Below the pieces are notes generated by a model. That model did no database searches and was not told the origin of the DNA. It saw only the letters and a program-made list of their open reading frames with translations. Shown piece after piece: positions 44,425 to 51,378 of a stretch of DNA of 64,000 bases; within the stretch, counting starts at the first letter, position 1; each line of letters opens with the position of its first letter. Location: contig JASFYJ010000002.1 in NCBI GenBank assembly GCA_030055525.1, positions 168,189-232,188 on the forward strand, in the 5' to 3' direction. Source of the DNA: Archaeoglobales archaeon (GTDB lineage Archaea > Halobacteriota > Archaeoglobi > Archaeoglobales > Archaeoglobaceae). A program made the translations under genes and the position numbers.

Positions 44425-45631
44425 ATGCGCCTTGTCACCCTCTCACTCCTTGAGATAGTCCTTGGAACTAGCTGGGGTGTAATCGCTAGCTTATACGCTT
44501 TCACATTAGTCTCCGAAGGATATGAAAACATCTACGGATTTCTAGCTATTATAACAAGCTTAATAGCAATACTATCTACTATGTTAACTGGATTTTTATA
44601 CAACTATAGGATTAAAAAATTTTTGATGCCTTTAGCAGCTCTCTCGATCACTCTCTCAATGTTTGAGCTATTCGAAGGTAAATTAGTTCTTTTACCAATA
44701 CTTCTTGGCTTAGCATCTGGAATACACGGAGTCAGTTCTCTTTATGCTGTAAGCAATCTTGAGGGAAGTTTCAAGAAGTACTCGATAGTATATGCATCAA
44801 GCCTGTTTGGGTTATCTTTTGGAGCTTTTTTGGTGGCCATTAGTTTTGCAAGGGCTCTTTATTTTATATTGGCTACCTTTACAATTCTTGCAGGGTTTAC
44901 ATATACTAAATTCGTTTCAAGTAACAGATTAAATGCTAGAACAAACAAAGAAGAGACTAAAATCAAAAAATTTCCCTATATGTACCTCTTACCTCTAACA
45001 GTACTTCGGCGTTGCAATTGGCATGACAGCCTACAATGCAGATTACTATTTGATCCTAAAATTTGAAGCAAAGGAAGAAGAAGTAGCTTTAATGCTCTCT
45101 ATAGCTTCTCTAGCTGCAGCTTGTGTAACTTTGACCGGAGTTAATCTGATAAAAGGGGACGTAAGATTAGTCCATGGAATTGCGATATCTATCCAAAGTA
45201 TTTTCTTTGTTGCAATGGCCATGGTTCCAGCAATAAGCTTTGCTATAGTAGTCTATGCTATGAGAGACGTCGTTGGCATTGTAGCGGAATCGACGATGGA
45301 AGCTATATTGATCGAATCAAACAAAGAGGCGAAAGTTACATCTATCTCTATATTTCAAGTACTTTGGGAGTTGTTCACCGGTGTTGGAAAGTATATAGGC
45401 AGTTCTATAGCATTAGTAAATCCTGATTTACCTTTCCTGATTGCTGCGGCCTTTCTCTTCGTTTACAGTGTTGTTTTTGTCTACCTATCTTACAGTAAGG
45501 AAGAAAAGTCGAGAGAATTTGAGAGTTCAAATCTTAAAATCAAATCAAGAAACAACCTAATATTAAATTTTGATCATAAGAAGGTAAGTTTAGTAACACC
45601 CATAGCACTCTACAAGTTCGACACTATATAG
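44425..45631 (+). pseudogene. MFS-type transporter interrupted by a frameshift near 45000
   Basis: ORF 44425-45066 (12-TM-like N half) and ORF 45023-45631 (C half); continuity restored by a 1-nt shift at ...LLPLT | QYFGVAIGMTAYNADYYL. Confidence 0.75.
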
Positions 45632-48650: not shown

Positions 48651-48733
48651 GCGGGGGTTGCCGAGTGGACAAAGGCGCTGGATTCAGGGTCCAGTCCTGT
48701 AGGGGTTCGGGGGTTCGAATCCCTCCCCCCGCA
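48651..48733 (+). tRNA. tRNA-Leu (CAG); integration target (attL)
   Basis: GCGGGGGTTGCCGAGTGGACAAAGGCGCTGGATTCAGGGTCCAGTCCTGTAGGGGTTCGGGGGTTCGAATCCCTCCCCCCGCA. Confidence 0.95.
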
Positions 48734-48734
48734 T
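48675..48734 (+). repeat. attL (3' part of tRNA-Leu)
   Basis: GCGCTGGATTCAGGGTCCAGTCCTGTAGGGGTTCGGGGGTTCGAATCCCTCCCCCCGCAT. Confidence 0.92.
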
Positions 48735-49547
48735 GTCTCAGAGCTGAAATCAAAACTTAAGACGTTTCTCAGAAATTTAGAGCTAACTAACATTTCAAAA
48801 AACGAAATAAAGCTTTACGCATCAAATATACAAAAATTTTTAGAGGAATGTTCATACTCGCTAAAAGATGATAGCATATTAATTTATATAAACAAATTAA
48901 AAGAAATTTACAAACCAAGAACAGTAAGAGGCAAAGTTGTCCGTATTAGGAGATTTCTAAAATTCATAAACCACCCGATAGCCGATGCAATTTCTTTGCC
49001 AAAGATCCCAAAACAGTTAAAGACTGTAATCAAAATCGGAGACGTTCAGAAAATACTTATACAAGCTAATGCGCTTCCACATCCATACAATCTAAGACTC
49101 AAAGCAGCAATTCTCTTGACAGCCACGTCTGGGTTGCGAGCGGAAGAAGTTTATAAGCTTGAACGAGAGGATTTCGATCTTGAAAACAGAACTATTTATT
49201 TAAAAGCAGAGAAAACGAAAGATTTTGAAGAACGACTTGTATTTTTCAGTGAAGAGACAAAATCCGCTCTCAAACAATATTTTGAAGTTTCTGATTACGT
49301 TTTGTTCCCTAAAAAATCAATAGCTTATTGGTTTAAGAAAATAGAAACACCATTAAGGCTCAAGCACATGAGAAAGCTCTCCTCTCAGCAAAGCGACCGC
49401 TTGGGGATGCCTACTGCGGTTAAAAAGCTGTTGATGGGACATTCTCTTCAGGGAGATGTGGATTTGAATCATTACGACTTTCAGGATGAGGAGGAGTTGA
49501 GGAAGATTTATGATAAATATTGGAGGGGCTTTAGAATTCTATCTTAA
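48732..49547 (+). pseudogene. Tyrosine recombinase/integrase, C-terminal fragment int(C) of a split SSV-type integrase
   Basis: Open frame from the tRNA through TSGLRAEEV ... LKHMRKLSSQQSDRLGMPTAVKKLLMGHSLQGDVDLNHYDF (R, HMR, GH, Y catalytic residues); no ATG; ORF track starts at TTG 48996. Confidence 0.85.
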
Positions 49548-49550
49548 TTC

Positions 49551-49811
49551 TTAGTAAACTTTCTTTCTATGCCCCAAAGCGATCAGATGAATCTCCTTCT
49601 TCTCTTCCACAATTCGATAAATAACTCGGTATTTTCCTATCCTCAAAGACCTTAAGCCAGAATACTCGTAGGACAACGGTTTCCCGGCGTTTGGATTCTC
49701 AGAGAGCTTCTTAATCGCTTTAGCTATCCTCAATGCAAGTTCTGAGTTCTTTTTCGTTAAGTCTTTGAAAGCTTTTTCGAATTCTGGAGTAGCTTTAATT
49801 TTATAACTCAT
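49551..49811 (-). CDS. relE: RelE/ParE-family toxin
   Basis: MSYKIKATPEFEKAFKDLTKK ... LRSLRIGKYRVIYRIVEEKKEIHLIALGHRKKVY. Confidence 0.9.
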   Translation of the reverse strand: MSYKIKATPEFEKAFKDLTKKNSELALRIAKAIKKLSENPNAGKPLSYEYSGLRSLRIGKYRVIYRIVEEKKEIHLIALGHRKKVY

Positions 49812-49996
49812 TCTGAGATCTCCAGATCTTCGAGAATTTCATCAAAATCTTTAAGTTCTCCTCTATCCGCTTCTTCTAAACCCTTCTTTATAGATTGAGC
49901 AAGCTCTTCATCATTCATAACTTCAAGAGTCTCGATGATTGACTCTATTCGGGCTTTAATCTCCTCAAGCTCTTTTATTATTGAAACTCTTTGCAT
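49808..49996 (-). CDS. relB: Antitoxin partner of RelE-like toxin
   Basis: 62-aa acidic helical ORF overlapping the toxin start by 4 nt. Confidence 0.75.
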   Translation of the reverse strand: MQRVSIIKELEEIKARIESIIETLEVMNDEELAQSIKKGLEEADRGELKDFDEILEDLEISE

Positions 49997-50156: not shown

Positions 50157-50306
50157 CCGGAAGTTCTTTCGGAATTTAAGAAGGCAGTGCTTGAGAGACA
50201 CGGCAAAATACGTGGAGTATTGCAAAAAGAGGCGACTGAAGCGATAAAGAAGCACATAGATTGGCTTAGATGTGAAGGTATATGCAGATCGATAAAAGAG
50301 CAGTAG
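50157..50306 (+). pseudogene. 5'-truncated gene fragment
   Basis: Reads PEVLSEFKKAVLERHGKIRGVLQKEATEAIKKHIDWLRCEGICRSIKEQ* with no start codon before an upstream in-frame stop. Confidence 0.5.
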
Positions 50307-50536
50307 GATTAGATGAGATCACCGCTCTGGATAGCGTTATAGCCAAGGCTTATTCGATTTTTTCAACTTTCGACTTTGAAACAAAGCCAAGAGTTGTGGA
50401 GGTATGGATAAACGCTCTCCTGCGTGCTATAAAGCTTAAAAACGAGATTTTAGCGCTGAAAAGTCCACAGAATGAATTTGAAAGAATTCTTGAAAATCTG
50501 TGGAAGGAGGATGGAAATGAAGAGGGAAGAATTTAG
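50282..50536 (+). CDS. Hypothetical protein of the integrated element
   Basis: 84-aa ORF followed by an overlapping ORF with its own RBS. Confidence 0.5.
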   Translation: MQIDKRAVGLDEITALDSVIAKAYSIFSTFDFETKPRVVEVWINALLRAIKLKNEILALKSPQNEFERILENLWKEDGNEEGRI

Positions 50537-50753
50537 AAAATTGAAGAGAGTTTTAAAAGTTGAGAACGCTAAAGACGTTCAAAGGATTTTGAACACGCTT
50601 TCAGCTCTCGTGATTACTGAAGCAATAGATCGAGAAATTGCAGAGATTTTGTTGAAAATTCTCGAGTTACAGGTCAGAATTCTTGAAATTATAGAACTCG
50701 AAGATGTTGAGAAGCTCGAAGATGCAAAGAAGGATTTCAACCCTCATACTTAG
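50517..50753 (+). CDS. Hypothetical small helical protein of the integrated element
   Basis: MKREEFRKLKRVLKVENAKDVQ...; GGAGG placed before ATG 50517; ORF-track start 50472 is likely too long. Confidence 0.55.
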   Translation: MKREEFRKLKRVLKVENAKDVQRILNTLSALVITEAIDREIAEILLKILELQVRILEIIELEDVEKLEDAKKDFNPHT

Positions 50754-50794: not shown

Positions 50795-51049
50795 ATGTCA
50801 TTACCAGTAAGGGTGAAGATAAAGTGTCCAGGATGTGGAGAGTGGTTTGAAACTGGCTACTGGGCTTCTATAAACCTAATGGTTGAACCTCTAAGCGAAG
50901 AAGACGTTGAAGAGAGAATAACCCATCAATGCCCTCACTGTGGAAAAAAGATCGTTCTAACACCTGATCTTTTGGTGACATCCGAGGAGTGGTTGATTTT
51001 TGAAGCGGATCGGGAGCAGGAAAAGATCGAGATCGAATTTCTCGATTGA
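50795..51049 (+). CDS. Small zinc-ribbon protein of the integrated element
   Basis: CPGCGEWFETGYW ... HQCPHCGKKIVL paired CxxC motifs. Confidence 0.65.
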   Translation: MSLPVRVKIKCPGCGEWFETGYWASINLMVEPLSEEDVEERITHQCPHCGKKIVLTPDLLVTSEEWLIFEADREQEKIEIEFLD

Positions 51050-51186
51050 TTTCTCTTTTAGTTTACTCTAATCGGTTTTTGCTTTCTTTCCACAGTAGTT
51101 TTCGATTTTGTAAAAGCATAAATAATGTTGTGCGGTAGTTTACTGTGGAGAGTATTGGTTTATATAAATAAAGCAGTGGTGATAAA

Positions 51187-51378
51187 ATAAAGAAGAGAAC
51201 TTCTGTTTACGTTGATGCAGAACTGCTCGAGTGGGCAAAGCAGAATAGCGTGAACATTTCTCAACTGCTCGAAAATGCGCTAAAAAGTATTAAAAACAGA
51301 AAAAACCCTGTAAATGCGCTGGATTCAGGGTCCAGTCCCGTAGGGGTTCGGGGGTTCGAATCCCTCCCCCCGCATTGA
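51187..51378 (+). pseudogene. Integrase N-terminal fragment int(N) with ribbon-helix-helix-like segment, running through attR
   Basis: (ATA)KKRTSVYVDAELLEWAKQNSVNISQLLENALKSIKNRKNPVNALDSGSSPVGVRGFESLPPH*; TATA-like tttatata upstream; start codon position reads ATA. Confidence 0.7.
51316..51375 (+). repeat. attR (partial tRNA-Leu copy)
   Basis: GCGCTGGATTCAGGGTCCAGTCCCGTAGGGGTTCGGGGGTTCGAATCCCTCCCCCCGCAT. Confidence 0.92.

Follow-up and report, generated by a model that had tools for sequence, protein, structure and literature searches.

A split tyrosine integrase with an RHH head, an att-encoded linker and a XerA-like body in an integrated element of Archaeoglobales

Suicidal (type I) integrases are defined in a 2021 review of archaeal tyrosine recombinases (PMC8371274). 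According to that review, the SSV, pTN3 and pT26-2 families carry domain PF16795, for which a single origin is suggested, and pT26-2 integrases are listed in Archaeoglobales. The review also describes trapping by splitting of the integrase gene; in the SSV2 integrase, it reports, multimerisation is under the control of the N-terminus, and recombination by IntC alone is poor. Conversely, the gene of the pNOB8-type (type II) integrases stays intact on integration (PMC8371274).

The locus described here resembles the type I systems SSV1, pTN3 and pT26-2 in having an att site within the gene near its N-terminus (after about 63 codons in SSV1), an IntN/IntC split, a tRNA target and an R...KxxR...Y signature. 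It differs from them in that its catalytic half is recognised far better as XerA than as PF16795 (pT26-2 being compared by description only), and its N-terminal domain is of the RHH type, whereas that of SSV1 is PF07935. Furthermore, its att is read in the tRNA sense, whereas the examined PF16795 IntC that start in att appear to read it antisense. With pNOB8-type integrases it shares membership of the tyrosine recombinases of archaeal plasmids and a weak tblastn similarity (e.g., pKEF9), although these form a separate branch in our tree.

The element and its divided integrase gene

The window analysed is a stretch of 64,000 nt from an Archaeoglobales archaeon (GCA_030055525.1, contig JASFYJ010000002.1; genome size 1.56 Mb). 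It contains a mobile element of 2,641 bp, bounded by tRNA-Leu(CAG) at 48651-48733 and by a second copy of the 3' part of this tRNA at 51312-51375. The corresponding direct repeat (48671-48734 and 51312-51375; spacing 2641) measures 64 nt, is identical at 62/64 positions (2 mismatches), and spans from the anticodon arm to the 3' end of the tRNA. An empty site was sought by synteny in congeners, where the flanking genes do not lie beside this tRNA. Elsewhere in the window, two overlapping ORFs in different frames (44425-45631) resemble a single frameshifted membrane transporter gene. The parts of the element that concern the integrase are as follows:

48651-48733, + strand: tRNA-Leu (CAG), the integration target, whose 3' part is attL (ARAGORN; Rfam RF00005, 51.7 bits)
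48671-48734, + strand: attL copy of the core repeat, anticodon arm to tRNA 3' end (direct repeat D1, 62/64 against 51312-51375)
48735-49547, + strand: IntC, core-binding (SAM-like) and tyrosine-recombinase catalytic domains, 270 aa (PF00589, E=5.7e-10)
51187-51375, + strand: IntN, 63 codons, start ATA, ATG in the 13 other IntN compared (reading frame and upstream comparison)
51312-51375, + strand: attR copy of the core, encoding the interdomain linker ALDSGSSPVGVRGFESLPPH (direct repeat; frame at attR)

The frame at attR reads ...IKKRTSVYVDAELLEWAKQNSVNISQLLENALKSIKNRKNPVNALDSGSSPVGVRGFESLPPH* and the frame at attL reads ...ALDSGSSPVGVRGFESLPPHVSELKSKLKTF..., the IntC frame being open from inside the tRNA. 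As the original prediction had stated, both copies are in the same frame, and virtual circularisation, in which 51187-51375 is joined to 48735-49547, produces one in-frame ORF of 333 codons. The accompanying claim that the att sequence itself encodes protein also held, att constituting an interdomain linker. A search of the family with the joined protein retrieved a contiguous relative in genome G019 (L084), an intact gene with an ATG start that aligns over residues 1-331 at 55% identity, located on a contig of 3,431 bp (L032/L084). This gene possesses the N-terminal segment, and no intact homologue lacking it was found, a class of sequence that the prediction had named as contrary evidence; the intact relatives found comprise the G019 gene and a second one in G021. 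The G019 contig (L032, G019:C8, + strand) also bears ORFs of 323 and 299 aa that by eye resemble tail/fibre-type virion proteins; judged in this way, it suggests a fragment of a free virus genome.

Ten sense-orientation IntN/IntC pairs were reconstructed from separate genomes, and nine of them join in frame, with a probability of about 4e-4 under random frames. In the tenth (G026), the IntN frame mismatches that of an IntC 36 kb away; this suggests that two elements used the same tRNA-Leu(TAA), and since the halves differ in frame and appear to come from two elements, it was counted as one pair not in frame. Past the att of G026 (L039/L127, C1:750448 onward), a remnant similar to the beginning of a further IntC follows IntN. 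The nine in-frame joints, together with the intact contiguous gene of G019, place the match between both halves above chance. All nine in-frame elements display the head MKKRTSVYIDAELLEKAK..NLSQLLE.AI; elements of the family sit before tRNA-Leu, Gly, Thr or Lys genes, and the IntN-IntC distance within one element ranges from about 2.6 to 39 kb. The attachment site is thus located inside the integrase gene, which is split on integration, as in suicidal (type I) integrases.

Additional evidence for a single gene came from a sister element in a congener (G053), whose cargo (RelE toxin, antitoxin and three ORFs) is 93-100% identical in nucleotide sequence to that of the window. Identity between both elements drops to 40-60% at 51201-51375 and from 48735 to about 49350, recovering afterwards. 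Only circularisation brings these two divergent stretches (51201-51375 and 48735-49350) together, as one tract running through IntN, att and most of IntC, and this single contiguous tract across the virtual attP is evidence for one gene. The target of the G053 element is tRNA-Thr, that of the window tRNA-Leu, and the simplest reading of the sequences is that an element in circular or recombining form had the central part of its integrase gene, att included, replaced. The G053 IntN starts with ATG and its IntC is decayed. In this genome (L164, G053:C1:325800-345700), an inversion has left the IntC-toxin-antitoxin block and the cargo-IntN block about 15 kb away from each other; their relative orientation is opposite, and the genes in between are host-like.

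The same data bear on the notion that the ORF next to att encodes a separate RHH regulator or antitoxin, which abuts attR and matches the IntC frame by coincidence. The top Pfam match of this ORF is indeed an antitoxin family (CcdA), and a RelE-type toxin is carried by the element; the toxin, however, already has an overlapping partner ORF, nine of ten pairs are in frame, the G053 divergent tract is continuous through both halves, and intact genes hold both halves in one ORF. We consider this notion extremely improbable, and already refuted by the intact relatives unless these are assembly artefacts.

Regarding distribution, 24 of 397 genomes of the phylum match the family at E<=1e-25, 4 of them outside Archaeoglobaceae, where the family is rare; its loci come mostly from MAGs of Archaeoglobus/Archaeoglobales, and a search of annotated phages and plasmids retrieved distant recombinases and no close relatives. 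For the IntC copies of G001 and G005 no partner IntN was detected, and the only IntN detected for those of G004 and G022 were of antisense type and belonged to other integrases; several of these partnerless copies are truncated or contain stops. The intact relative in G021 (L117/L138, C67) comprises 362 aa, with a weaker RHH match below the cut-off and no tRNA-like linker; given this missing linker, retention of the gene may also occur within the clade. It adjoins a tRNA-Leu(CAA) that also bears the antisense RHH IntN of another integrase.

The RHH head and the att-encoded linker

51190-51291, + strand: RHH domain (KKRTSVYVDAELLEWAKQNSVNISQLLENALKSI), with helices predicted at 11-19 and 24-38 (Pfam CcdA, 32.2 bits; cut-off 22.4)

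An RHH-like N-terminus had been proposed from the sequence of IntN, and profile searches agree: the Pfam CcdA model, of the RHH superfamily, matches IntN at E=1.4e-7 (32.2 bits; cut-off 22.4) and all nine aligned members at E<1 (best 1.2e-8). The curated RHH (CcdA/CopG) cut-off is passed by IntN and also by an antisense-type IntN (35.1 bits). In structure prediction, the two helices were recovered and the beta strand was unformed in the monomer model; a Foldseek search with the model of IntN alone gave no significant match (best 5x3t, VapBC, at E=0.58). The AlphaFold2 model of the intact relative, built from 14 sequences and of moderate confidence only (mean pLDDT 68.3), places the head helices at 11-19 and 24-43. 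The strand-helix-helix register is shared with the RHH/CopG-type regulators ORF56 (2k9i) and 56B (2kel), sequence matches to the PDB being weak and non-significant; these regulators are free-standing, whereas the RHH of the window is fused to a recombinase.

RHH heads also occur outside the XerA-like clade. G015 carries, at tRNA-Glu, a 28-kb element in which an identical 43-nt att joins an RHH-like IntN to an IntC at a PF16795 match, a split integrase of the PF16795 type with this kind of head. In G004, G015, G021, G022 and G236, other RHH-like IntN extend into tRNA genes in antisense orientation; for that of G015 at tRNA-Leu(CAG), a second att was not found within 40 kb.

In the AlphaFold2 model of the intact relative, the segment 39-59 displays pLDDT values below 50 and coincides with the att-encoded part. 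Depending on the element, this tRNA-derived linker uses any of the three sense frames, yielding RGFES/RGFKS in the window, G015a, G025 and G039, RVQIP in G015b, G007 and G023, and GSNP in G014, G010 and G019. In G063, a relative from another family, it is read antisense; there (L139, C56:27900-29000) an RHH head and a catalytic half are contiguous, in different frames, across an antisense tRNA-like att, and the junction is possibly a chimera of two integrases or an assembly artefact. As the linker is read in differing frames, its peptide sequence is unconserved, and the head and the body alone are conserved. A linker free of sequence constraint would let the integrase be retargeted to other tRNAs and frames by exchange of the central tract.

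The catalytic half and its placement

IntC matches PF00589 at E=5.7e-10 (39.7 bits; cut-off 27.1), and residues R198, K225, K273xxR276, H299 and Y310 are invariant in the alignment, thus including the R...KxxR...Y signature (R198, K273-H-M-R276 and Y310). Against the XerA model NF040815, IntC scores 94.7 bits (E=6.7e-27), below the equivalog cut-off of 220, and the intact relative reaches E=2.5e-27. Since IntC aligns from the second residue of XerA through the core-binding and catalytic domains, the RHH and att parts would constitute an addition before a complete XerA-like recombinase. In the AlphaFold2 model of the intact relative, the core-binding region has four helices and XerA structures are the best Foldseek matches of the catalytic fold; the best PDB relatives by both sequence and fold are 4a8e and 5hxy. 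The window integrase differs from archaeal XerA in its RHH head and att linker, in being the gene of a mobile element, and in carrying KxxR instead of the usual HxxR. A search of the whole genome (98% complete) with NF040815 retrieved the split IntC as the only match, and no chromosomal XerA was found.

The original prediction had described the integrase as SSV-type, which holds for the arrangement of the gene and fails for its sequence family, the catalytic half being XerA-like and below the PF16795 cut-off; the N-terminus likewise departs from that of SSV1, which is PF07935 (E=2.6e-34), the window IntN having CcdA/RHH instead. An ordinary member of the SSV/pTN3/pT26-2 (PF16795) suicidal lineage would share the splitting arrangement and the R...KxxR...Y signature, as described in PMC8371274. 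Many PF16795 integrases are present in Archaeoglobaceae, and weak PF16795 matches were obtained in 5/9 members of the family; the window copy gave none at E<=1, and the best member (E=2.3e-4) stays below the 27-bit cut-off, against E=2.5e-27 of the intact relative to XerA. Furthermore, the tree sets the window family apart from PF16795/SSV with supports of 100/99, and membership of that lineage is in our view quite unlikely. An independent origin of self-disruption in the XerA-like clade is favoured by the tree (88/81), yet one clade comprising the window family and PF16795/SSV was not rejected (AU p = 0.195), and such an origin is not claimed here. The term helix-helix is absent from PMC8371274, and the parts of it consulted assign no RHH to the split-off N-terminus; the window gene is a suicidal (type I) integrase of a variant absent from the literature searched.

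State of the window copy and proposed mechanism

49551-49811, - strand: cargo RelE/ParE-family toxin (PF05016, E=7.1e-14; TIGR02385 above cut-off)
49808-49996, - strand: cargo probable antitoxin, no family hit (position and toxin overlap; conserved with the toxin in G053)
50282-50536, + strand: cargo ORF, N-terminally truncated by comparison with its 148-aa G053 homologue
50472-50753, + strand: cargo ORF of unknown function, 98% identical in G053
50795-51049, + strand: cargo CpXC-type zinc-binding protein, 84 aa (PF14353, 35.7 bits; cut-off 25.4)
51159-51170, + strand: TATA-box-like TTTATATAAATA upstream of IntN, conserved in nearly all of 14 upstream regions compared
51178-51183, + strand: Shine-Dalgarno-like GGTGAT of IntN (upstream comparison and sequence)

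The toxin and its overlapping probable antitoxin (49551-49996) are 92-95% identical in G053, and homologues of the CpXC-type protein were found in the G053, G007 and G010 elements. Nearly all of the 14 IntN upstream regions bear TTTATATAAA and a Shine-Dalgarno sequence, and 13 of these IntN start with ATG, the window copy with ATA (51187-51189). The only canonical in-frame start in the window IntN is GTG 51250, from which the RHH strand and first helix would be lost; owing to the ATA, the circularised window copy would give an ORF without a canonical start codon, and integrase activity in this genome is doubtful. Within IntC, the first ATG/GTG/TTG is TTG 48996-48998, at codon 88 counted from the tRNA, so that a complete catalytic half is unlikely to be translated. 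With the ATA start, the missing usable start of IntC and the truncated cargo gene, the window copy is probably immobile, although both halves are open. The window copy may well be a dead remnant, with neither half expressed and its features fossil, a reading that we hold to be probable and that is compatible with our explanation of the family; the two att mismatches also speak for it. On the other hand, both halves are fully open and the catalytic residues intact, which points to a recent or slow decay.

The locus is, in our view, very probably a small mobile element in its integrated state, whose tyrosine integrase was of the suicidal (type I) kind and consisted of an RHH head, an att linker and a XerA-like body. 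The circular form would encode the RHH domain, a linker from the attP/tRNA-Leu 3' sequence, and the XerA-like core-binding and catalytic domains. Integration at the tRNA would split the gene, fusing IntC to the tRNA 3' end, whose sequence is restored by the element's copy, and leaving IntN with its promoter at the far end. By analogy with the SSV2 integrase N-terminus, the RHH head may dimerise the enzyme, bind flanking DNA, or both. RHH proteins are normally obligate dimers, which would fit a role in multimerisation. Splitting would then strip the assembly domain from the catalytic part and lock the element in place, a lock that might be lifted if an intact integrase were supplied in trans.

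Alternatively, the RHH could bind an operator instead of mediating enzyme assembly; a conserved RHH operator upstream of IntN was sought by eye only, and none was found. In members whose IntN has an ATG, this half retains its TATA box, Shine-Dalgarno sequence and start codon, and could yield a separate RHH protein; by binding the integrase promoter or the att arms, such a protein would silence incoming relatives and hold the element in place. That integration turns the integrase gene into a repressor gene, and that the same RHH-plus-tRNA-linker module has been combined with both XerA-like and PF16795 lineages, is a proposal that we rate as rather doubtful.

Why integrases are maintained although they disrupt their own gene is an acknowledged puzzle, and the 2021 review ties self-disruption to one domain family, PF16795, of one origin (PMC8371274). 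In the integrases described here, instead, splitting detaches an RHH domain, att serves as a free linker read in several frames, and the catalytic half is XerA-like. In addition, two near-identical elements differ in their target tRNA and, along with it, in one central tract of the integrase gene. Taken together, these observations offer a concrete and testable route for target switching, as well as a testable role for IntN.
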